Source: Nitrospirota bacterium (GTDB lineage: Bacteria; Nitrospirota; Thermodesulfovibrionia; Thermodesulfovibrionales; UBA1546). From it: a DNA stretch of 40,337 bases. Shown piece after piece: positions 5,434 through 40,274 of the stretch. Location of the stretch: positions 1 through 40,337 of the forward strand of contig JACQXD010000159.1 in NCBI GenBank assembly GCA_016208875.1, read 5' to 3'. Position 1 is the stretch's first letter. Every line of letters begins with the position of its first letter. Both the position numbers and the translations under genes were made by a program. The notes beneath the pieces are model-generated. The model was given only the letters and a program-made list of their open reading frames with translations, was not told the origin of the DNA and made no database searches.

Positions 5434-5473
5434 CAGCTATCAGCCTTCAGCTTATAGCTGATAGCTGACAGCT
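5434..5473. repeat. AGCTATCAGC/GCTGATAGCT dispersed palindromic repeat
   Basis: The words CAGCTATCAGC and GCTGATAGCTGACAGCT lie close together in inverted order and can fold into a hairpin. It fills the pilC-pilS junction. The same vocabulary recurs at 16409-16446, 22585-22611, 25690-25730 and 32903-32934. Confidence 0.75.
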
Positions 5474-5480
5474 TCCTTTT

Positions 5481-9683: not shown

Positions 9684-9701
9684 TGCTTGCTCCGCGAAAA
9701 T

Positions 9702-9824
9702 TCATGATGCACGATGCATGATGCATGATGCATAACACCCCCCTTTAATTCCCCTCTTACTAAGGGGGGACATAGGGGGGTGTATCGTGCATCGTGTATC
9801 GTGTATCGTGTATCCTGCATCACG
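9702..9824. repeat. Nested compound palindrome between the two pilB genes
   Basis: Three layers are nested. Outer arms of ATGATGCACGATGCATG type (about 9703-9733) face arms of GTATCGTGCATCGTG type (about 9782-9822). Inside them ACACCCCCCT (9735-9744) pairs with AGGGGGGTGT (9774-9783). Inside those a CCCCT (9751-9755) pairs with the AGGGG at 9763. It looks like one repeat element inserted into the loop of another. No T-run follows, so it is not a classical terminator. Confidence 0.75.
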
Positions 9825-9825
9825 G

Positions 9826-11664
9826 TCAGTCCCCGAATGTCGCCCTTACTATCTCTTCCACGGATGTAATGCCATCTTTTATTTTCGTTAAACCGCTTAT
9901 CCGCAGCGTCCTCATACCGAGTTTGATGGCATTTCTCTTTATCTCATCGGCAGATGCACCTTCGAGCGTCAGTTCCTTGATCTCTTCTTTCAGCGGCATA
10001 ACCTCATAAATTCCTATTCTTCCTTTGTACCCTGAATTATTACATACAGGGCACCCCTTCCCCTTGTAGCATTTTATGGCTGCTGCCTCATCTTCCGGAA
10101 AGCCCAGCTTTATCAGGGCCGGTACAGGGATCTTTTCCTCTTCCTTACACTGGGGACATATCTTCCTTATAAGTCTCTGGGAAGCAATAAGGATAACCGA
10201 TGCTGCTACAAGAAACGGCTCAATGCCCATATTTAACAACCTGCTTATAGTGCTGGGGGCATCGTTTGTATGAAGGGTACTGAGGACGAGGTGACCTGTT
10301 AAGGCGGCCTTAACCGCGATCTCTGCCGTCTCAAAGTCGCGTATCTCACCGACCATGATAATATCCGGATCTTGCCTAAGAAATGACCTGAGGGCTGCGG
10401 CAAATGTAAGCCCTATATCATCTTTTACAGCAACCTGATTTATACCCGGGAAGTTATATTCGACCGGGTCTTCGGCCGTAGATACATTTACACCGATCTT
10501 ATTCAGATAATTTAATGCAGAATAAAGGGTTGTTGTTTTTCCGCAGCCGGTGGGACCGGTAACCAATATCATTCCATTGGGTCTTTCGAGTGCAATCATA
10601 AAATCTTTTAAAGGTTCCTCATCTATACCCAATTGGGCAAGGTCCACTTTAAGATTACCCTTATCGAGTATCCTCATGTTGGTCCTTTCACCGAAGAGAC
10701 ACGGTACGGTCGAAACCCGGAAGTCTACCTCTTTCTTCTTCCCGAGTTTTAACTTAATTCTTCCATCCTGTGGAAGTCTCCTCTCCGAAATATCGAGACG
10801 TGCCATTATCTTGAGCCTTGACGTTAGGGCACTCTTTATCTTTGCAGGTAGATTCATAATAACGCGGCACTCGCCGTCAATCCTGTATCTTACTCTGACC
10901 GAATTCTCATAGGGCTCGATCTGAACATCACTCGCGCCTGCCTTTATTGCATTTAAAAGAATACCATTGGTGAGTTTTATTATCGGAGCCGCAACCTCTT
11001 TTATCTCCTCTGCATCTTCTCTCTCGTCTACAACCTCAACGTCGCCGAGTGCCTTGCCGACAACCTCATCGAATTCTTCGACGTCAACCGTAGTCCCCTC
11101 TTCACTACCACCTAACATATCTTCTACATTCATATCGTCCGACAAAGTATAGTCCTTTGCCTGCAATATTTCCGTTGCAGCGGACACACTTGTAGCCTGT
11201 GATTGTGCCTGTTGCTTTGCCGCTATAAGTCCCTCGCCCTTACCGCCATAATAAGTAGTTATTGTATTTATGAGTGCCGATTCCGTTGCTATTACAACAT
11301 CAACGTTGTATCCGGTCATAAATTTAACATCATCTACTGCAAAAACATTGGAGGGATCTGCCATAGCGATCGTTAGTGTGGCCCCGACTCTTGCCACGGG
11401 CATTATCATATACTTCTTTGCCATATCGGCGGGAATAAGCTTTGATACGGATGGGTCGATCTTATAATCGGAGAGATTTATCGCCGACATTCCATATTGT
11501 TTGCTGAGAAAAGTGGCAAGTTTATCTTCGGTTATATGTCCTAATTTGACAAGGTTAGTACCGAGCCGGCCGCCCTTCTTTTTCTGGAGATTAAGGGCCT
11601 CTTTTAACTGATCTTCAGTTATTACGCCTGCTGTAATGAGTATCTGGCCTAATTTTACTGCCAT
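9826..11664 (-). CDS. pilB: Type IV pilus assembly ATPase PilB, first copy
   Basis: 612 residues with the same architecture as the gene that follows: MshEN domain (1-145), acidic linker (165-225), GspE ATPase with Walker A GPTGCGKT, TAEDPVEY, IIMVGEIRD, LVLSTLHT and a four-cysteine zinc loop (KICPQC and CPVCNNSGYKGR). The MshEN parts of the two copies are nearly identical, while linker and ATPase have drifted further, with sequence differences throughout. It is the first gene of the operon, with a sigma-70-like promoter just upstream. No ribosome-binding site is visible before the ATG and the predicted leader is only about 8 bases, so translation may be nearly leaderless. Confidence 0.93.
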   Translation of the reverse strand: MAVKLGQILITAGVITEDQLKEALNLQKKKGGRLGTNLVKLGHITEDKLATFLSKQYGMSAINLSDYKIDPSVSKLIPADMAKKYMIMPVARVGATLTIAMADPSNVFAVDDVKFMTGYNVDVVIATESALINTITTYYGGKGEGLIAAKQQAQSQATSVSAATEILQAKDYTLSDDMNVEDMLGGSEEGTTVDVEEFDEVVGKALGDVEVVDEREDAEEIKEVAAPIIKLTNGILLNAIKAGASDVQIEPYENSVRVRYRIDGECRVIMNLPAKIKSALTSRLKIMARLDISERRLPQDGRIKLKLGKKKEVDFRVSTVPCLFGERTNMRILDKGNLKVDLAQLGIDEEPLKDFMIALERPNGMILVTGPTGCGKTTTLYSALNYLNKIGVNVSTAEDPVEYNFPGINQVAVKDDIGLTFAAALRSFLRQDPDIIMVGEIRDFETAEIAVKAALTGHLVLSTLHTNDAPSTISRLLNMGIEPFLVAASVILIASQRLIRKICPQCKEEEKIPVPALIKLGFPEDEAAAIKCYKGKGCPVCNNSGYKGRIGIYEVMPLKEEIKELTLEGASADEIKRNAIKLGMRTLRISGLTKIKDGITSVEEIVRATFGD

Positions 11665-11890: not shown

Positions 11891-12322
11891 CTATTCCTTA
11901 TGGCATTTTATACAAAACGCAGAATTATTAGGAAACCTTAACAGCATTTCATATCCCTTTGTACCATGAGGATCATGACATGTTATACAAGTTATCCTCC
12001 CATCAGGGTCTAAAGGGAACCCTTCCACAGTCACAGAAACTTTTATCCCTACCGCGTGTTCTCCCTTGCCGATCCTTTCTTGATGGCAGGATACACAAAT
12101 ATCTGCTGCCGGTTTACCGAGCAAAGGCTTTTCTTCTCCTTTGTGTGATAAGTGACACATACTACAATTTTTTGCTTCATGTGCCGTAACCTCAGGCGGT
12201 TTGATTTCCGGAACCTCGATCTTTGGAGCTGCACAGGCTATAAAAAGCACCAGTAAAGCTAACCCCCAAAATGCGTTTAGAAAAGTGTAGATGTCTGCAA
12301 TTTTGAATTTTGATTTTTGCAT
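11891..12322 (-). CDS. Tetraheme c-type cytochrome, lipoprotein
   Basis: 143 residues from the ATG at 12322. A short basic start and a hydrophobic stretch end in a lipobox-like LFIAC with C30, so the protein is probably lipid-anchored outside the cytoplasm. Four haem c sites follow: CSMCH, CVSCH, CITCH and CIKCH, paired in the doubled-CXXCH manner of small periplasmic electron carriers. The CHDPHGT and CHLSHKGE surroundings fit that family. The frame is open further upstream, but that part overlaps the small UGA-containing gene, so I chose the later start. The start codon itself lies in a dispersed AAAATTCAAAATGCAAAAATC repeat and has no ribosome-binding site, so coupling to the upstream gene (16 bases away) is likely. 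Confidence 0.82.
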   Translation of the reverse strand: MQKSKFKIADIYTFLNAFWGLALLVLFIACAAPKIEVPEIKPPEVTAHEAKNCSMCHLSHKGEEKPLLGKPAADICVSCHQERIGKGEHAVGIKVSVTVEGFPLDPDGRITCITCHDPHGTKGYEMLLRFPNNSAFCIKCHKE

Positions 12323-12335
12323 TTTGAATTTTATT
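12304..12335. repeat. AATTCAAAATGCAAAAATC repeat supplying a start codon
   Basis: On the minus strand this common dispersed word contains the ATG used by the tetraheme lipoprotein and encodes its first residues (MQKSKFKI). A relative encodes [11 protein letters not shown] in hemC at 25252-25290. Confidence 0.6.
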
Positions 12336-14244: not shown

Positions 14245-14919
14245 TCATGGACTAAACCTCACGTAATTCTCCCAGTAATAAAGAAGCTCCTTTGTTGCCC
14301 TGACATCTCCCATACAGTATCTCGCAATATCAACGTATCTCTTATCGGTGAAAATGGCTTTAATATCGTATCCCGTAATGCCGTCCTCTTTAGGACTCTT
14401 TATGCCGAATGTCTTGCACCACATATCGAGACTGAACCTGCGCCGTGAGGCCCCATAAAAAGTCAACTGGTCAAACAGGTCTATATGCGGTCCATTATAT
14501 CTGTTCGGCATAATTTCCCTTGAGGGTTTTATCTTATGCACTGCGGAACGGATGAGTATGAAAGGGCAATCGAACCCTCTGCCGTTGAACGTAATAATTT
14601 GCGTATAAGTTTTTACTGTATTCCAGAATTTTTCGAGTATCTCTTTTTCGGTTCCCGTCTCAAATTTTATTCCGTTCTCCTCGAAAGGAAGACACTCGGT
14701 CCCCGGCGACTGGAAATATACTGCGCCTTTATCGGTGTCGGGATTCAGAAGACCGATAGTTATTATCTCGCCTGTCAGAGGATAAAACGACAGGCTTTCT
14801 TTAACATCCTTAACATCTTCATCCGTCTCTGCCCATTTAAGAAGATAGTCCTGCGTCCCTTTATCGAGGGAATCGAAGTCCTTGCCGAGAGTCTCTATAT
14901 CAAAAATTATTCGGGACAT
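14245..14919 (-). CDS. Predicted 3'-5' exonuclease, PolB-exonuclease-like (DnaQ fold)
   Basis: 224 residues. The three exonuclease motifs are visible: Exo I FDIETLG (D7, E9), Exo II ITFNGRGFDCPFI, and Exo III YCMGDVRATKELL with the last Asp near the C-terminus. This is the stand-alone family related to the proofreading domain of family B polymerases. A metal-dependent single-strand exonuclease role in repair or RNA trimming is inferred. It is the last gene of the minus-strand run and is separated from ctpA by an 84-base palindromic repeat. Confidence 0.88.
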   Translation of the reverse strand: MSRIIFDIETLGKDFDSLDKGTQDYLLKWAETDEDVKDVKESLSFYPLTGEIITIGLLNPDTDKGAVYFQSPGTECLPFEENGIKFETGTEKEILEKFWNTVKTYTQIITFNGRGFDCPFILIRSAVHKIKPSREIMPNRYNGPHIDLFDQLTFYGASRRRFSLDMWCKTFGIKSPKEDGITGYDIKAIFTDKRYVDIARYCMGDVRATKELLYYWENYVRFSP

Positions 14920-14928
14920 AATCTAAAC

Positions 14929-15012
14929 GATACACGATGCACGATGCATGATACATGATACGCAATGCAAGACGAGTTTGTTAATCGTGTATCGTGAATC
15001 ATGCATCGTGGT
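14929..15012. repeat. ACGATGCATGATAC / GTATCGTG palindromic repeat
   Basis: Words of the ATACACGATGCACGATGCATG type (14931-14960) face words GTGTATCGTGAATC and ATGCATCGTGG (14986-15011) across a short spacer, so a long hairpin can form. It is of the same type as the outer arms at 9702-9824. Confidence 0.75.
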
Positions 15013-16348: not shown

Positions 16349-16408
16349 CTTCCGTATAACCTCCAATTTAATCTCCGCTCTAAAATAATAACTTTCACTG
16401 TATTGCTT

Positions 16409-16446
16409 AAAGCTAACAGCTAATAGCTAATAGCTATTAGCTATTA
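16409..16446. repeat. AGCTAATAGCTATTAGCT palindromic repeat
   Basis: A run of AGCTAACAGCTAATAGCTAATAG-type words followed by the inverted word CTATTAGCTATTA. It fills the envC-ctpA junction. Confidence 0.7.
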
Positions 16447-17649: not shown

Positions 17650-17740
17650 TACCCCTCTTTGGCAAAGAGGGGCGAGGGGAGATTTTATGAATCCATTTAT
17701 CTATAAAATCCCCCTTTATCCCCCTTTTCCAAAGGGGGAA
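17650..17740. mobile_element. MITE-like element, empty pair of inverted hairpin arms
   Basis: The left arm is a CCCCTCTTTGG-type hairpin (17652-17672) followed by CGAGGGGAGATTTTAT. The right arm is ATAAAATCCCCCTTTATC followed by a CCCCCTTTTCC-type hairpin (17720-17738). Read from the outside the two arms match: hairpin, about 3-4 bases, G-tract, GATTTTAT. Only about 15 bases lie between them. The same arm pair encloses a DUF559 remnant at 27106-27341. It sits between ftsX and envC and supplies part of an upstream, probably unused, start for envC. Confidence 0.7.
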
Positions 17741-19383: not shown

Positions 19384-20420
19384 TATTTTATTGCCTCTTT
19401 TACAGTCCGTACAATATCGTCGGCTGTCAATCCGTATAATTTCATCAACCCCTCCGCAGGTCCGGAGCATCCGAAGGTATCTTTGATTCCGATCCTTTTC
19501 ACAGGAACCGGATAATTTTCAGTTAGTATCTCGCACACCGCTCCTCCAAGCCCTCCTATAATCGAATGTTCCTCTGCCGTAACGATAAGCCTCGATGCCT
19601 TTGCAGCCTTGATTACCGCATCATTGTCCAGTGGTTTAACCGTTGACATGTTGATTACCCCGGCATCTATCCCGTTTTCCTTGAGAATTTCCATCGCCTT
19701 TATCGCAACGGATACCATTATGCCGCAAGCAATAATATTTGCATCTTTACCAAGACTGAACGTATATGCCTTGCCTATACTGAATTTATAGTCTTCGGGC
19801 ATTATAACGGGGACCTTTACCCTTCCGAGCCTGACGTATACAGGGTAGTTGTAGTCTGCTATCGTCTCGATGACCTGTTTTGTCTCTATGCCGTCTGCAG
19901 GCACGATTACGGTCATATTGGGAAGCACCCTCATAAGGGCTATATCTTCGATCGCCTGATGTGAGGCACCGTCTTCTGCAACAGTGATCCCGCTGTGGGT
20001 GGCAACGAGCTTTACATTCAGATTCGAGTAGGAGACAGTCTGTCTTATCTGTTCCCATGCCCTTCCGGTTTCGAAAACGGCAAATGTAGAGGCAAAGGCC
20101 AGTTTTCCCGTGAGGGAAAGGCCGCTTGCAGTACCGATTAAATCCTGTTCCGAAATGCCCATATTATAAAACCTCTCCGGGAATACCTTTGCAAATGTGC
20201 CTGTCTTTGTAGATGCCGAAAGATCTGCATCGAGAACAACTACGTTATTTCTTTTTTTGCCGAGTTCGAGGAGTGCCTCTCCATAAGCATCCCTCGTTGC
20301 TACCAGTTGTGACGAGTCATAACTCCCCCTTCCCCCTCTTATCTTAAGAGGGGGATTAGAGGGGGCGTTATCCTTACTTGTCTCTTGTCTCTTGTCTCTT
20401 GTCTCTTCTTTCTCACCCAT
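19383..20420 (-). CDS. Transketolase C-terminal subunit
   Basis: About 345 residues from ATG 20420, which overlaps the stop codon of the N-terminal subunit (ATGGGTGA). It holds the pyrimidine-binding domain (VVLDADLSAST, FAKVFPERFYNMGISEQDL, GITVAEDGASHQAIED) and the transketolase C-terminal domain (from about 220). With the neighbouring subunit it makes a split transketolase of the pentose phosphate pathway. Residues of roughly 6-35 are translated repeats: TCTCTTG units give RDKRQETS and a C-run/G-run hairpin gives NPPLKIRGGRG. The catalytic fold begins only after them (QLVATRDAYGEAL). Confidence 0.92.
   Translation of the reverse strand: MGEKEETRDKRQETSKDNAPSNPPLKIRGGRGSYDSSQLVATRDAYGEALLELGKKRNNVVVLDADLSASTKTGTFAKVFPERFYNMGISEQDLIGTASGLSLTGKLAFASTFAVFETGRAWEQIRQTVSYSNLNVKLVATHSGITVAEDGASHQAIEDIALMRVLPNMTVIVPADGIETKQVIETIADYNYPVYVRLGRVKVPVIMPEDYKFSIGKAYTFSLGKDANIIACGIMVSVAIKAMEILKENGIDAGVINMSTVKPLDNDAVIKAAKASRLIVTAEEHSIIGGLGGAVCEILTENYPVPVKRIGIKDTFGCSGPAEGLMKLYGLTADDIVRTVKEAIK
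20321..20410. repeat. C-run/G-run hairpin plus TCTCTTG tandem repeat inside tktC
   Basis: The hairpin at 20321-20369 has an outer CTCCCCCTT/GAGGGGGCG pair and an inner CCCCCTCTTA/TAAGAGGGGG pair. Next to it (20379-20410) lie four near-perfect copies of a 7-base TGTCTCT unit. All of it is translated within the N-terminal extension of tktC. Confidence 0.75.
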
Positions 20421-21770: not shown

Positions 21771-22580
21771 CTACTCCTTATATCCGACAATCGAGATACC
21801 GGCTTCATTCGCCTCTTTAATAATTTTTTCACGCTGGAGGAGGATGCTCTTATTTGCCTCAACAGCAAGTACCCGGGCATTGACCTCTATCATCGCCTTC
21901 ATAGTATTCACCCCAACTACAGGGACGTCGAATCGCATATCCTGCTTGGGTTTGCTCACCTTAACAATAACAGCACCTTCGCATGCAAGCCTTCCGCCTC
22001 TGAGAATTGCCTCGTCCGTTCCTTCTATTGCCTCGATTGCCATGACAGCCTGATCTTTGATTACAACAGTCTGCCCTATGTCCAGACGGCCGATCTCTTT
22101 TGCAATCTTCCATCCGAATGCCACGTCCTTCCATTCGTTTTCCGACAGGCTGTCTTCTGTGAGGAGACCTTCCGGTGTGAGAAGACCTGAACTGAAGTCG
22201 GTTGTATTAAGGAGTATTATGCCGTCCTTTTCGAGTTCTTTTGCTATTGCAAGCATTATGGAATCGTCACTGTGGTCTTTCAGGGTGAACAGGAGCTTAA
22301 CCGCCCTCAAATCGGGTATGATCTTGCTCTTGTAAAGAAGTGACTTTGGTACCTTCCCTGCCATTACAGCCTCTTTTACACCGCTCTTTTTGAGAGAGTC
22401 TATGATCTCGCCGAGCTTGCCGACGCTTATCCTCTTTATCCCGTCAACGTATTTATCGAGGTTCTTGTCTGCCAACGGCTCAAGGGCTACGGCTATTACT
22501 TTATATCCCTTATCCCTCGCTTCCGTTGCCACGACCTTCGGCAACTCGCCCATGCCTGCTATAAGACCAAGAGTCTTCAT
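21771..22580 (-). CDS. lpxI: UDP-2,3-diacylglucosamine hydrolase LpxI
   Basis: 269 residues, matching the LpxI (DUF1009) family over its full length: MKTLGLIAGMGELP at the start, VMAGKVPKS, and GFDIGQTVVIKD-like GRLDIGQTVVIKDQAVMAIE with an EGTDEAI motif. LpxI removes UMP from UDP-2,3-diacylglucosamine to give lipid X in lipid A synthesis, doing the job LpxH does in E. coli. It follows lpxA in the same direction, separated by a short palindromic repeat. Confidence 0.93.
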   Translation of the reverse strand: MKTLGLIAGMGELPKVVATEARDKGYKVIAVALEPLADKNLDKYVDGIKRISVGKLGEIIDSLKKSGVKEAVMAGKVPKSLLYKSKIIPDLRAVKLLFTLKDHSDDSIMLAIAKELEKDGIILLNTTDFSSGLLTPEGLLTEDSLSENEWKDVAFGWKIAKEIGRLDIGQTVVIKDQAVMAIEAIEGTDEAILRGGRLACEGAVIVKVSKPKQDMRFDVPVVGVNTMKAMIEVNARVLAVEANKSILLQREKIIKEANEAGISIVGYKE

Positions 22581-22584
22581 AAAA

Positions 22585-22611
22585 TAGCTGATAGCTAATA
22601 GCTTATAGCTA
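22585..22611. repeat. TAGCTGATAGCTAATAGC repeat providing the lpxA stop codon
   Basis: AGCTGATAGCTAATAGCTTATAGCTA-type string between lpxI and lpxA. On the minus strand its GGTAGCTA edge contributes the TAG stop codon of lpxA, so the repeat reaches the very end of that gene. Confidence 0.65.
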
Positions 22612-23388
22612 CCGGCATATCCCTCTCTTATTCTTCTCTATGAATTCTACGAGATGCCTTATCTCTTTCGAATCAGGGAATTCCTTCTGCACCTTCTTAA
22701 GTGCTTCCTTTAAGGTATGTTTCTCCCTGAAAATTATCTTGTATGCCTTTTTAAGGTTATTTATTGTCGAATCGGGAAATCCCTGCCTCTTAAGACCAAT
22801 GGAATTAAGCCCGAAAAGTTTTGCCCTCGGTCCAGACGCCATTGTATAAGGTGGTATATCCTGACCCACGCCGCTGAACCCGCCTACCATGGAATATCCG
22901 CCTATCCTCGTAAACTGGTGCACTGCGACAATGCCTCCGATATATGCATAATCCTCAACCACCACGTGTCCTGCGAGGGTCGCAAGATTGGTCATGATTA
23001 CATTGTTCCCTATTTTGCAGTCATGGGCTATATGGACATAAGCCATAAGGAAGTTATTATTCCCGATCCCGGTTATACCGTCGCCGCCGACCGATCCCCT
23101 GTGGATAGTGACATATTCTCTTATAATGTTGTTGCTGCCGATCCTTACCCCGGTTTTTTCTCCTTTATACTTGAGGTCCTGTGGAGGAAGCCCGATGCCT
23201 GCAAAGGGATATATCTGGCAGTTCTCTCCGATTTCGGTATTCCCCTCTATAATAACGTTAGATGATAGTCTCACCCCTTTTTTTAATTTAACTCCTTCCC
23301 CCACGATGCAGAAAGGACCTATAAACACTCCTTCGTCAATGGACGCCTTGGGGTCTATAATAGCTGTTTTATGTATTTCTGTCTTCAT
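22609..23388 (-). CDS. lpxA: UDP-N-acetylglucosamine acyltransferase LpxA
   Basis: 259 residues. A left-handed beta-helix of hexapeptide repeats (about 5-190) carries the LpxA signatures HRGSVGGDG, FLMAYVHIAHDCKIGNN with the catalytic histidine, and the GLNSIGLKRQGF helical-domain start. It transfers an acyl chain to UDP-GlcNAc, the first lipid A step. It overlaps fabZ by 4 bases, so the order lpxD-fabZ-lpxA is the classic one. The C-terminus ends within a dispersed repeat. Confidence 0.95.
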   Translation of the reverse strand: MKTEIHKTAIIDPKASIDEGVFIGPFCIVGEGVKLKKGVRLSSNVIIEGNTEIGENCQIYPFAGIGLPPQDLKYKGEKTGVRIGSNNIIREYVTIHRGSVGGDGITGIGNNNFLMAYVHIAHDCKIGNNVIMTNLATLAGHVVVEDYAYIGGIVAVHQFTRIGGYSMVGGFSGVGQDIPPYTMASGPRAKLFGLNSIGLKRQGFPDSTINNLKKAYKIIFREKHTLKEALKKVQKEFPDSKEIRHLVEFIEKNKRGICR

Positions 23389-24925: not shown

Positions 24926-25960
24926 TTGGCAAAAAAGATTGTTATAGGCACGCGAGGAAGCAAACTTGCGTTATGGCAGGCCGAATGGGTCAAGGCAGAA
25001 CTTTTAAAACTCGATCCGGATTTAAGTATCGAATTAAATAAGATAAAGACAACCGGTGACAAAATTCTTGATGTCCCGCTTGCAAAGGTCGGTGGTAAGG
25101 GGCTTTTCGTTAAGGAGTTAGAAGAGGCAATGCTCAGAGGTGAGGCAGACCTTGCCGTTCACAGCATGAAGGATGTGCCAACCGACTTTCCCGTGGGACT
25201 TCATCTGGCAGTAATATGTAAGAGGGAAGATCCGAGGGATGCATTCATTTCACAAATTCAAAATTCAAAGTTCAAAGTTCAAAATTTTAGAAGCCTTCCC
25301 CAATATGCGACCGTTGGGACAAGCAGCTTAAGGCGTTCCTGTCAGCTTTTAAATATTAGGCCGGATTTAAAGATTGAGCAGCTCAGAGGTAATCTTGACA
25401 CGAGATTGAGAAAACTCGACGAAGGACAGTTCGATGCGATAATACTCGCTGCTGCCGGCGTCAAGAGACTCGGATGGGAGAAAAGGATTACCGAGATCAT
25501 AGAACCTGGAATAAGCCTTCCGGCAATAGGTCAGGGTGCTATCGGAATAGAATGCAGGGTTGATGATAAATTTGTTAATAACCTTATTGCACCATTGAAT
25601 CATATAGAGACGTCTATATGCGTCAGGGCGGAAAGGGCATGCCTTAAAAAACTCGAGGGAGGCTGTCAGGTCCCGATCGCCGCACATGCACGATTAATCA
25701 GCTATCAGCAGTCAGCCATTAGCAGTCAGAAAAATTCCGCAATCCGCAATCCGCAATCCGAATTATTAGTTATGGATGGCCTTGTCGGAAGTGTCTTGGG
25801 TGATAAGATTATTAAGGCTCATATCGAGGGGAATCCGGAAGACGCGGAATCCATTGGACTTAAACTCGCCGAAGACCTTCTTTCCAAGGGCGCAAAAGAA
25901 ATACTCGATGAAGTTTATGGCAAAGGCATACGGCCCGTTAACGGTGAGATAGCGAGTTAG
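24926..25960 (+). CDS. hemC: Porphobilinogen deaminase (hydroxymethylbilane synthase)
   Basis: About 344 residues against a usual 305-315. The start is most likely TTG 24926, 6 bases after GGAG; ATG 24920 overlaps that site. Motifs are complete: [42 protein letters not shown] with the catalytic Asp, [11 protein letters not shown], and [11 protein letters not shown] with the cysteine that holds the dipyrromethane cofactor. It makes the linear tetrapyrrole for haem and sirohaem, in demand here because of the many c-type haems. The extra length comes from two in-frame repeat insertions, [12 protein letters not shown] near residue 112 and [19 protein letters not shown] with its continuation near 255, both in surface loops. 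Confidence 0.94.
25252..25290. repeat. ACAAATTCAAAATTCAAAG repeat inserted in hemC, first site
   Basis: Dispersed AAATTCAAAATTCAAAG words read through in frame between [10 protein letters not shown] and [11 protein letters not shown], a loop of variable length in the family. Confidence 0.75.
25690..25765. repeat. AGCTATCAGCAGTCAGC and CCGCAATCCGCAATCCG repeats inserted in hemC, second site
   Basis: Two repeat words lie next to each other: the AGCTATCAGC family and a tandem 7-base CCGCAAT unit (three copies). They are translated in frame in domain 3, just after the cofactor-binding cysteine motif. Confidence 0.75.
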
Positions 25961-26877: not shown

Positions 26878-27105
26878 ATTATCTGCTCCTTCTTTTACTT
26901 TAACCTAAATCGGGCGATTTTACTAAAATCCCCTACCAATCCATTTAAAAAGGTAACTTTGTAGAGCCCTTCCCCTTGTGTTATTATATTTTCTATAAAT
27001 GATGCACATCTGTCCAAAATAAAATTTAGCTTCTTCAGGGTTTAGTGTGGGTATAATAGTGTGCAGATATAATAAAGTCTCCCTCTGGCAAAGATATACT
27101 CTTGT
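26878..27105. other. Intergenic stretch without recognisable gene
   Basis: No open frame of merit. A TATAAT box lies at 27052-27057 on the plus strand without a good -35 box. It ends at the left arm of the DUF559-bearing element. Confidence 0.5.
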
Positions 27106-27341
27106 CCCCCCTTTGGCAAAGGGGGGTGAGGGGGGATTTTAAGAACAGATGCTTTCTTATGATAAAGAAGAAGAGGGAAGAACAAAAGATGGGCGGAGAG
27201 ATGAGTTTATGAGAAGCATTGGATTACGGGTTTTGAGATTTTCTGACAGAGAAGTTTTTGAAAACATAGAAGGCGTAATTAAAAGATAGGGGGAAATTTA
27301 TGATTTATAAAATCTCCCCTAACCCCTCTTTTCCAAAGAGG
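27106..27341. mobile_element. Hairpin-armed element enclosing a DUF559 remnant
   Basis: The left arm is a CCCCCCTTTGG-type hairpin (27106-27126), then TGAGGGGGGATTTTA. The right arm is ATAAAATCTCCCCTAACC (27308-27325) running into hairpin CCTCTTTTCCAAAGAGG (27325-27341). Read inward, both arms give hairpin, short spacer, G-tract, GATTTTA, so they are terminal inverted repeats of about 35 bases. Between them lies a 46-codon remnant of a DUF559 endonuclease gene. The empty pair at 17650-17740 has the same arms. The M56-like protease gene begins 34 bases beyond the right arm. Confidence 0.75.
27149..27289 (+). pseudogene. DUF559 (Vsr-like) endonuclease, internally deleted
   Basis: The frame runs from MLSYDK to a stop and ends GLRVLRFSDREVFENIEG plus VIKR. 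The N-terminal six residues and the last 35 or so are those of full-length DUF559 proteins, which are about 115-130 residues. The middle, with the conserved nuclease core (LLW..., VDFYC, IEIDGGQH), is missing, replaced by an abrupt join at EEEGRTKDGRRDEF. DUF559 is related in fold to the Vsr mismatch endonuclease. The remnant cannot be an active nuclease. Confidence 0.75.
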
Positions 27342-27375
27342 CGGATCCACAGGAAAGCCAGTAGAACCAAAATTT

Positions 27376-28356
27376 ATGAAATTCTTTGATTCATATATGG
27401 GCATGTTCATTGCCCAGTCAGTTCTTCATTCCCTCATAGCTGCAATAATCGTCGACAGGGCAATTCAGATATGGGGGATCGGCGATCCTCTGGTAAAACA
27501 GAGGTTTTGCCTAATTGTCATCCTGTTTCCCATCTTTTCTTTCCATGGGTATCAGATGATAAATCCAGAGAGGGGGGCGATATCTTTCAGATTAAATGCG
27601 ATCTTTGATATCAACAGATGGCTTAAGCTGGAGTTTTGGAATATCCCTCTGGGTCTGCTGTTCATTTTGATTTTATCCGGTACCACCCTTATCTTTTTTT
27701 TTCAAGAGATGATCCCCATACTCAGGCATACCTTTGAATCAAAGGAACACGCATTCCATGAAAAAAAGGCCGATGACTATCCTCCTATAAGCGATGCACT
27801 AAGAGGCCTGTCCGTAGAGAAGCCGGAAACCTTTATTATAGAGGATAGGGATCGTATATTATTTTCCATAATGGGAGAAAGACCTGCAATATTTTTATCC
27901 ACCGGACTTGTAGAAATATTGAACAGCGAGGAAATAGTGACGGCAATTGCCCATGAGATTGCACATATCAGGAGGAACAAGCGACCGATACTCGTTATTG
28001 TTTTTATACTGAGGGTGCTGATGTTTTTTAATCCTGTAGTTCTTTTGGAGTTCAGACGGGCAGTTCAGGAGGAAGAAAAAATATGCGATGATATGGCTGT
28101 CTCTTTAACGCAGAAACCCCATGTACTGGCCGAAACCCTGAGAAAACTTTATTATGAAGTGAAAGATTTTAACCCCCTAAAGAATGGTAATCTTTCTAAT
28201 TTAAAGGATTCTCTTGAGGAATACAGCCACAATATCCATATAATGAACAGGATTATAAGACTTGAACAGGGATCGGTATCCGGGAATGGCGGTGAATGGA
28301 TGAAATTTATACTTACGCTTGCGGTCATCGTAGTAATAAACTATTTTGTCGTATAA
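27376..28356 (+). CDS. Membrane metallopeptidase, M48/M56 type
   Basis: 326 residues. Hydrophobic segments lie near 10-25, 43-60, 88-110, 203-220 and at the C-terminus (WMKFILTLAVIVVINYF). Zinc motif HEIAH at 193-197, preceded by the conserved RPAIFLSTGLVEILNSEE and followed by EEEKICDDMAVSL, which supplies the third ligand region. This is the BlaR1/M56 or HtpX-like arrangement of a protease facing the membrane. No sensor domain or BlaI-type repressor gene is nearby. It is followed after 12 bases by an unknown membrane-anchored protein, probably its partner or substrate. Confidence 0.82.
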   Translation: MKFFDSYMGMFIAQSVLHSLIAAIIVDRAIQIWGIGDPLVKQRFCLIVILFPIFSFHGYQMINPERGAISFRLNAIFDINRWLKLEFWNIPLGLLFILILSGTTLIFFFQEMIPILRHTFESKEHAFHEKKADDYPPISDALRGLSVEKPETFIIEDRDRILFSIMGERPAIFLSTGLVEILNSEEIVTAIAHEIAHIRRNKRPILVIVFILRVLMFFNPVVLLEFRRAVQEEEKICDDMAVSLTQKPHVLAETLRKLYYEVKDFNPLKNGNLSNLKDSLEEYSHNIHIMNRIIRLEQGSVSGNGGEWMKFILTLAVIVVINYFVV

Positions 28357-32867: not shown

Positions 32868-34457
32868 ATGCAGACATTGCTCAAAAATTTATTAAACGCA
32901 TGGATAGCTAAAAGCTGTCAGCTATCAGCTATTACTAATGCAGTCATAAGTATGAAGACTCTAATTATAAAATCCCTCCTAACCTCCCTTTGCCAAAGGG
33001 AGGAAAGATTCCCCTCTATTAAGAGGGGATTAAGGGGTGTGTTCCTCTTGCTGCCTCTGTTCTTTGTTCTTTTAGTTAATAGCGGTATTGCAAAAGAGAC
33101 AGGTCTTTCGGAGGAATCGCAGGGATGTCTGGGATGCCACGGTAAAAAAGGTATAACCGCGAGTTTTGAGAATAACGAATTCGTAGAGGCATATGTGGAT
33201 GCGGAGAAATTTAAGGCCTCCATCCATAATTCCTTAACATGTTCAGACTGTCATATTGATTTTTCCGCAGATAAACATCCGGAAAGAAGGTTCAGAAGCA
33301 AAGAGCAGTATACGATACAATTGTCCCGGGTGTGCAGGCGATGCCATACCCAAGAGCAGATCAAGGCAAAATCCATCCATGCCAGATTGTTCAGCGAGGA
33401 AGAAGAAGGCAGATCGCATCCCTGCACTAACTGTCACGGTTCTCATTCGATAATACGCGTGGGCAAGAGGATGTTTAAGAATGAGGAGCAGTACTGCCTG
33501 AAATGCCACGGCAATGGGGTGGAGATGGAATTTAAAAACGGGGAGATATTATCGCTCGGAATAGATATTTCGTTATTAAACGACTCCGTTCATAACAAGC
33601 TTAGCTGCTCGGACTGCCATTTTGGTTTTTCTTCTGAAGAACATCCCCAGAGAAACTTCAGGTCAAGGCGCGAATATACCCTTGCCTCCTCGGAGAATTG
33701 CAGGAGATGTCATTTCGATAAATATACCAAGACCCTTGAAAGCATACATTTTTCCGTGCTCAGTCAGGGCAATTTGCGTGCGCCGGTATGTATCGACTGC
33801 CACGGTTCCCACTCCATATCCCATTTTGGTAAGGAAAGGATATCGATAGCACGGAGATGCCAGAGATGTCATTCGGAGGTATATAATGTATATACCAAGA
33901 GTGTTCACGGCAATGCCCTTATCAACGAATCCAACCAGGATGTCCCCATATGCATAGACTGTCACAGGGTACATGACATCCAGAATCCCCTTACATTGGA
34001 GTATCACGAGAGGATACCCGAGATGTGCGGTAATTGCCATGCCGACAAAGCCATCATGGGGAAATACGGTCTTTCAACCGATGTTGTAAAGACCTACCTG
34101 ACGGATTTTCACGGTGTTACCTTAAGTTTCTACAAAATGCAGAGAGAGACGCTTACAAAGCCTGCGAGACCGATAGCTGTCTGCACCGACTGTCACGGGA
34201 CCCATAATATAACCAGTACGAGAGGCACATCCGCAGCAATCCTAAAGGCCAACATGGTGAAAAGATGTCGGCAGTGTCATAAGGATGCAACAAAGAATTT
34301 TCCGGATGCGTGGCTATCTCATTACGAACCGAGCCTAAAGAAGGCACAGTTGGTTTTTGTTATTAACCGGGCATATGACATTTTAATGCCTGTTATGGTG
34401 ATCGGTCTTCTGCTTCAAATTATATTGCATATCTGGCGATACGCGATAAACAGATGA
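32868..34457 (+). CDS. 13-heme c-type cytochrome with C-terminal membrane anchor
   Basis: About 529 residues from ATG 32868 (GGAGAG 11 bases before; ATG 32775 and 32952 are alternatives). Thirteen CXXCH sites are seen, beginning CLGCH and ending CRQCH, several in CIDCHGSH and CTDCHGTH surroundings. A final membrane helix (VMVIGLLLQIILHIWRYAI) anchors it. It matches the large multiheme subunits that pair with cytochrome b in quinol:cytochrome c complexes (Cbc/Hmc-like). The stretch before the signal-peptide core (FLLLPLFFVLLVNS) contains translated repeats (AKSCQLSAIT, and LTSLCQREERFPSIKRG), which lengthen the leader. Confidence 0.88.
   Translation: MQTLLKNLLNAWIAKSCQLSAITNAVISMKTLIIKSLLTSLCQREERFPSIKRGLRGVFLLLPLFFVLLVNSGIAKETGLSEESQGCLGCHGKKGITASFENNEFVEAYVDAEKFKASIHNSLTCSDCHIDFSADKHPERRFRSKEQYTIQLSRVCRRCHTQEQIKAKSIHARLFSEEEEGRSHPCTNCHGSHSIIRVGKRMFKNEEQYCLKCHGNGVEMEFKNGEILSLGIDISLLNDSVHNKLSCSDCHFGFSSEEHPQRNFRSRREYTLASSENCRRCHFDKYTKTLESIHFSVLSQGNLRAPVCIDCHGSHSISHFGKERISIARRCQRCHSEVYNVYTKSVHGNALINESNQDVPICIDCHRVHDIQNPLTLEYHERIPEMCGNCHADKAIMGKYGLSTDVVKTYLTDFHGVTLSFYKMQRETLTKPARPIAVCTDCHGTHNITSTRGTSAAILKANMVKRCRQCHKDATKNFPDAWLSHYEPSLKKAQLVFVINRAYDILMPVMVIGLLLQIILHIWRYAINR
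32903..33043. repeat. Three dispersed repeat words inside the 13-heme cytochrome leader
   Basis: An AGCTGTCAGCTATCAGC word lies at 32903-32934. A type-1 arm begins ATAAAATCCCTCC at 32967 and contains a CCTCCCTTTG/CAAAGGGAGG hairpin. A type-2 arm follows with hairpin CCCCTCTATTAAGAGGGG at 33011-33028, then ATTAAGGGGTGTGTT. All are read in frame within the N-terminal extension. Confidence 0.75.
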
Positions 34458-40238: not shown

Positions 40239-40274
40239 CCCCTCTAAAAAGAGGGGTGCAGGGGTGTGTTTATA
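40239..40274. repeat. Type-2 hairpin arm directly before a DUF559 start codon
   Basis: Hairpin CCCCTCTAAAAAGAGGGG (40239-40256), then TGCAGGGGTGTGTTTATA, which runs straight into the ATG of the DUF559 gene at 40275. The same arm type (hairpin, G-tract, GTGTGTT) occurs at 33011-33043. Confidence 0.7.

Follow-up and report, generated by a model that had tools for sequence, protein, structure and literature searches.

Results

Arms and DUF559 remnant in the window

The window analysed here, a stretch of 40,337 nt, carries at 27106-27343 the remnant of a DUF559 gene between two inverted hairpin arms, and in this the preliminary description was correct. The left arm (27106-27141, + strand) reads CCCCCCTTTGGCAAAGGGGGG TGA GGGGGGATTTTA and comprises a hairpin (27106-27126), the TGA spacer, a mirror G-tract (27130-27135) and then ATTTTA. 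Its inverted copy, the right arm (27308-27343, - strand), reads TAAAATCTCCCCTAACCCCTCTTTTCCAAAGAGG.. and is made up of TAAAATC, a C-tract and the hairpin; both arms were predicted to fold as hairpins. The enclosed ORF (27149-27289, + strand) has 46 codons, which hold the start and the last third of the gene around an internal deletion, and it matched Pfam DUF559 (PF04480) over profile positions 65-102 (E value 1.6e-6, 28.4 bits, cut-off 20.6). Since a longer sister copy on contig C21 (L002) still has the missing middle portion, the remnant evidently lost this portion by a deletion within the gene, at a GAA repeat. The DUF559 protein at this site is dead.

Arms of the same class (subfamily C) also form a pair that encloses no gene. 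This empty pair, previously placed at 17650-17740, was confirmed at 17652-17740 with a left arm at 17652-17686, a right arm at about 17700-17739, approximately 20 bp between them and a fold z of -5.4. An Rfam scan of the window returned a tRNA as the sole match. Genome-wide counts in the host were based on sequence patterns, and one arm pattern by itself occurred 60 times in the 2.93-Mb draft genome versus 0 times for the reversed control; the arm repeats are far above chance expectation.

Further short repeats were seen in the window. The detector found pyrimidine/purine hairpins of other classes at 20331-20355, overlapping predicted ORFs, and at 40239-40256. Scattered intergenic runs of AGCTGATAGCT-like units lie at 5442-5474, 16390-16443, 22572-22618 and 32905-32933, units resembling GCATCGTGTATCGTG at 9700-9826 and 14909-15012, and units resembling TTTTGAATTTTG at 12294-12332 and 25254-25291.

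MITE-like carriers of the arms

The arms and the remnant are nested in a MITE-like carrier of 340 bp (27029-27368, + strand), which the preliminary description did not contain. Its ends, GCTTCTTCAGGG...CCAGTAGAACC, are shared with the copies on contigs C21, C26, C48 and C196, and a further copy lies on C30, these copies being partial or longer; the identity between the window and sister copies extends past the arms to these ends. The carrier has the features of a DDE transposon or MITE, namely terminal inverted repeats (GCTTCTTCAGGGTTTAGTGTGG / GGTTCTACTGGCTTTCCTGTGG, imperfect with a 17/25 match) and a fixed-length target duplication, the 8-bp AAAATTTA read directly from the sequence at 27021-27028 on the left and 27369-27376 on the right. 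At the C21 copy the flanking bases match at just 6/8. Because identity continues past the arms, the ends are inverted and AAAATTTA stands on both flanks, the window copy most likely came in as MITE cargo; it therefore gives no demonstration of DUF559-driven movement, and spread of this copy by its own, now dead, DUF559 protein is not supported. An ISL3 transposase as the driver of the outer MITE was dropped after a profile search of the host genome with PF01610 gave no match.

Two other units of the host genome bear arms. A second MITE family (L049-L059) has GTAACCATTCAGT ends, which look IS66-like, an empty arm pair, and 8-bp duplications, of which L059 shows GGATTCAG and L051 shows TTTTCGGG. 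A third repeat unit of about 45 host-genome copies is represented in the window at 32963-33030 (within 32955-33050, - strand) by a C-class arm (32963-33004) and a second hairpin (33010-33029). It has CATAAGTATGAAGACATTAAT-like outer ends and two arm classes in the outward order ..AAAATC-C-tract-hairpin, CACACCCCTTAATCCCCTCTTGATAGAGGGG, hairpin-G-tract-GATTTTA... Because many arms lie within such units, carriers account for much of the arm copy number here, and not all arms are simple empty derivatives of a DUF559 element. The earlier view of the hairpins as ends and empty derivatives of such an element is retained for its association and co-variation parts given below and limited by the arms that sit in other MITE-like units.

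Association of arms with DUF559 genes

Hairpins were scored at two sets of DUF559 loci, 50 from genomes of the window's order (best-scoring matches taken) and 80 out of a scan of 84,980 species. As a diverse DUF559 alignment proved too variable to scan genomes with, the window's subfamily served as seed for the wide set, which is biased to relatives of that subfamily. The detector was strict, requiring a perfect stem of 6 or more with pyrimidines on the 5' strand and at most 200 bp from the profile match, and it missed decayed arms. In the order set, whose loci are not independent, hairpins were found upstream at 40/50 and downstream at 41/49 (41/49 and 40/50 after strand correction). The likewise non-independent loci of the wide set gave 58/79 and 67/80 on the two sides and came from Nitrospirota, Nitrospinota, Deltaproteobacteria, Planctomycetes, Chloroflexota, Zixibacteria, Omnitrophota, Bacteroidetes, Patescibacteria, Gammaproteobacteria, Clostridia and Cyanobacteria.

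The background rate at the same loci, taken 800-1800 bp away, was 5% in the order set and 3-5% across phyla, and DUF559 domains within ORFs of 802-1922 aa had hairpins at 0/7 and 0/8. Over the approximately 130 loci, arms were 10-30 times as frequent beside DUF559 as nearby or at control genes, and every host-genome DUF559 copy with readable flanks has an arm, both as expected if the arms belong to DUF559 genes rather than to random ones, which the preliminary description had supposed. The orientation was regular, with the hairpin outermost and the G/C tract facing the gene. The DUF559-arm link is general and spans many bacterial phyla. Genomes of the order with DUF559 had a median of 15 arm-pattern matches versus 2 in those without (p 2e-8); one exception, G083, has 145 matches without a DUF559 match, and other such arm-rich genomes exist. 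The open-access literature searched yielded no paper linking DUF559 to repeats or triplexes.

The preliminary description had also proposed looking for empty sites, and none of the loci compared gave a clean pair of full and empty sites for an element bearing DUF559. In Acinetobacter, a fixed position for DUF559 had been suggested by single-linkage grouping and was unsupported by direct neighbour comparison; the flanks diverge there and no clean empty site was found. DUF559 relatives on plasmids came to just 39 plasmid records, mostly typed non-mobilizable.

Arm anatomy and potential triplex

Each arm is laid out as a pyrimidine tract, a loop, a purine tract, a few nucleotides and a second G-tract that mirrors the purine strand, often with T for A (AAGGAGGGG..GGGGTGGTT, AGAGGGG..GGGGAGA). 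Among 141 asymmetric arms the mirror order beat the direct order in 129 and lost in 5 (scores 0.84 vs 0.35), which ruled out the second G-tract as a direct repeat forming an alternative hairpin. When partners were shuffled among the 77 unique arm pairs, the observed mirror score was never reached (0/2000). Antiparallel purine-motif triplexes follow the same rule, in which the mirrored strand places G over G and either A or T over A. Judged by its sequence, the arm is a potential foldback purine-motif triplex hairpin (G.GC, A.AT or T.AT) on one strand, and it has the sequence makeup of intrastrand triplex motif class II, namely a pyrimidine tract, a purine tract, a mirrored purine(-T) third strand and short loops.

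In Clostridia (L204, L216, L218 and L221) the arms have a small extra hairpin between the purine tract and the mirror G-tract, in the pattern GGGAGAG..hairpin..GAGAGGG, as if a stem had replaced the third-strand loop.

Co-variation of arms with the DUF559 protein

Within a locus the two arms resembled each other (similarity 0.593) more than arms of different loci did (0.426; 0/5000 permutations), and arm similarity rose with DUF559 identity (Mantel r 0.52-0.65, 0/2000, in six tests without phylogenetic correction). Divergent DUF559 genes sharing a genome had an arm similarity of 0.430, versus 0.440 for unrelated loci, while similar DUF559 genes from different genomes reached 0.664 (p 1.6e-6 for the contrast with the divergent same-genome pairs). 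The arms track the DUF559 sequence and not the host genome. Such co-variation is predicted by cognate recognition or by joint movement as one cassette, and it could also arise if arms and gene were simply inherited together as a cassette, with no recognition between them. The arm and the DUF559 protein very probably form a functional pair.

Fold of the DUF559 protein

A structure model built from an alignment of 29 DUF559 proteins had a pLDDT of 90.8. The nearest solved fold was NGO0050 (3hrl; Foldseek E 1.5e-7, profile E 5e-30), followed by the catalytic domain of the homing endonuclease I-Bth0305I (3r3p; Foldseek E 2e-4, profile E 3.7e-4), so that DUF559 shares the homing-endonuclease fold by the 3r3p matches; Vsr (1vsr, 1cw0) and TnsA matched more weakly. 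The invariant residues include D46, E57, D59 and H63. Stand-alone DUF559 is thus modelled as a small PD-(D/E)XK nuclease with a fold of the Vsr / EDxHD-homing type. The likeness to Vsr drawn in the preliminary description holds, with the homing enzyme as the closer relative.

E. coli YcjD had been assigned to the PD-(D/E)XK superfamily, and the DUF559/YcjD profile detects Vsr (PMC1189080). In a Caulobacter methylase mutant, the SOS response depends on a DUF559 protein, VsrA, which is linked to DNA damage there (PMC12907096). Taken together, these two reports indicate that at least some DUF559 members probably act on DNA.

Relation to BoxC/PIT/TM repeats and to E. coli ycjD

By their anatomy, the DUF559 arms are of a published repeat type that was named BoxC in 1992, PIT element in 2000 and TM in 2015 (PMC4666352). 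These repeats were described in E. coli, Synechocystis and H. influenzae as gene-less and of unexplained origin, and mobility functions were never found near them by the survey authors (PMC4666352). An oligonucleotide of the E. coli motif formed a stable triplex in vitro by CD and NMR, and footprinting in E. coli cells did not clearly reveal one (PMC4666352). The common features are the pyrimidine tract, the purine tract and the mirrored G-tract, inverted A+B pairs and an intergenic location. The window arms differ in being of another sequence class, with a TTTGGCAAAG loop and a GATTTTA end, and do not fit the E. coli consensus CCCTCNCCC..GGGNGAGGG..GGGNGAGGG; the triplex data concern the E. 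coli sequence alone. Arms of subfamily A, for example L074 and L086, resemble the E. coli BoxC/TM consensus.

In E. coli K-12, TM #9 (1351204-1351239) lies 168 bp from ycjD (1351407-1351760), which is annotated as DUF559, and a decayed second TM, intact in strain KE47, overlaps the ycjD 3' end. By our estimate from 18 TM sites in 4.64 Mb, the chance of a TM that near ycjD is roughly 0.3%. Five K-12 TM pairs are inverted and resemble the empty pair of the window. The ycjD region is absent from about 2000/5426 E. coli genomes. In the fabI-sapF interval (L226, L232-L239), ycjD and TM #9 stand where O157 and B2 strains have the eef RND efflux operon; a simple insertion of ycjD was rejected, as this operon occupies the place in other strains (PMC12817139).

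All six TM loci examined in E. coli differ between strains, in comparisons made without outgroup polarisation. At fepB-entC, K-12 has a 186-bp arm-pair insert that O157, D8 and OW1E2 lack at this site, and at hrpB-mrcB Nissle has 12 different bases. At alx-sstT, B2 strains have one hairpin versus the K-12 pair, as if deleted between the C-tracts; at lldD-trmL, ST131 has no pair and ECE313 retains the G2 tract alone. Different sequence stands in place of the arms at adk-hemH and yihR-yihS. Target duplications, a further check named in the preliminary description, did not mark arm presence or absence at these loci in any clear or fixed form, so the signature of DDE transposons and MITEs was lacking there. 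Presence and absence with small replacements fit break repair better than DDE transposition.

Discussion

The core idea of the preliminary description, an element made of a DUF559 nuclease gene and hairpin ends, was largely right, and its reading as a whole is partly supported. The account that we favour, and consider rather probable, pairs the nuclease with cognate triplex repeats in a system that would operate in the manner of REPIN-RAYT but through homing-type chemistry. Gene-arm association, arm pairing and orientation, host-independent co-variation, the mirror rule, the nuclease fold and strain differences in arm presence are observed; from these we infer that DUF559 binds, cuts and copies the arms in the following way. 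An arm would fold once its strand becomes single during replication or transcription, and the cognate DUF559 protein would bind the folded arm and nick or break the DNA there or at a target. Repair of the break would copy the arm, either alone or together with the gene, to a new place, where a few bases would be replaced and no fixed target duplication would form. Inverted arms are seen to frame the gene, and gene-less pairs and solo arms are scattered across the genome.

The system does not belong to REPIN-RAYT, nor is it a proven homing element. It shares with REPIN-RAYT a small gene between inverted hairpin repeats, and single and paired repeats without the gene dispersed in the genome; it differs in that the gene encodes a PD-(D/E)XK nuclease rather than a Y1 HUH enzyme and in that the repeats are mirror (triplex) hairpins. 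The EDxHD homing endonucleases (I-Bth0305I, 3r3p) offer the closest solved fold with a known mobility role, but they interrupt a single, defined target gene and lack terminal hairpin repeats, whereas DUF559 loci occupy many intergenic places. Vsr is of the same superfamily but is a very-short-patch mismatch-repair enzyme without terminal repeats. IS-derived MITEs are matched by the carrier at 27029-27368, with its terminal inverted repeats and 8-bp target duplication, but the arms inside it are a separate feature without a duplication of their own.

Among the alternatives, the one that we find unlikely rather than remote takes DUF559 as a Vsr-like nuclease that polices or repairs triplex and hairpin DNA, with neighbouring arms that regulate or stabilise the gene and multiply otherwise, by slippage or carriage. 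It accounts for recognition without mobility and agrees with the Vsr-like superfamily (PMC1189080) and with the tie of Caulobacter VsrA to DNA damage in the methylase mutant (PMC12907096), but it leaves two things unexplained: the inverted arrangement of both arms with the G-tract facing the gene, and the excess of cognate arms dispersed through DUF559-positive genomes. Passive cargo of IS-derived MITEs, the arms being structural filler amplified by transposases, is what the window copy with its 8-bp duplication and the second MITE family with its arm pairs and duplications (GGATTCAG, TTTTCGGG) would suggest, and about 10 DUF559 loci of the order appear by eye to carry outer ends of this kind. 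In most of the 130 loci, however, no outer ends are visible by eye, and carriers of differing families cannot yield the co-variation of arms with DUF559 or the mirror rule, which makes cargo alone quite improbable as a general explanation.

Stable hairpins on both sides of a small gene might also be bidirectional terminators or mRNA stabilisers. The arms have no T-tract, a mirror third strand would be useless in a terminator, other genes lack such arms, and the published tests of the E. coli repeat, as cited in PMC4666352, gave neither promoter nor terminator activity; we give this explanation very little weight. Hardly credible is the reading in which RAYT (Y1) transposases move the arms as ordinary REP sequences and DUF559 is a chance neighbour. 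Y1_Tnp genes are present in 69/101 of these genomes. The Y1 genes of the same genomes lack the arms, however (hairpins at 5/27 and 2/25, both oriented arms at 0), the arms inspected by eye have no GTAG/CGTC tag at the hairpin foot, and arm proximity to DUF559 is far over background. The RAYT origin was rejected on the lack of arms at Y1 genes.

Returning to the nuclease with cognate triplex repeats, its meaning may reach further. It is possible, and proposed here tentatively, that DUF559 elements make up a class of bacterial mobile DNA not described before, in which a self-spreading cassette of one Vsr/homing-type nuclease and triplex-forming ends would use structure-guided cutting and copy repair, with no transposase or target duplication, and would be the source of the BoxC/PIT/triplex repeats across phyla. 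If true, repeats could spread in a transposase-free and structure-directed manner. No gene, origin or function has been attached to BoxC/PIT repeats since their description in 1992, and the DUF559-arm link suggests their source; ycjD with TM #9 offers a direct and testable answer within E. coli itself. A common "domain of unknown function" would also gain a role from the link, and the matching of proteins with arms provides ready-made pairs for biochemistry.

Arm units within DUF559 genes

In two divergent DUF559 copies, L115 (G087:C103) and L002 (G000:C21), a complete arm unit of C-tract, hairpin and G-tract lies inside the gene at the same position, directly after the DFYC codons. The unit in L115 is in frame and places TTPFIPPLLRGTEG where there are usually about 5 residues. 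The DUF559 reading frame of L167, from Patescibacteria, has one stop codon under table 11, and a pseudogene or another genetic code is possible.
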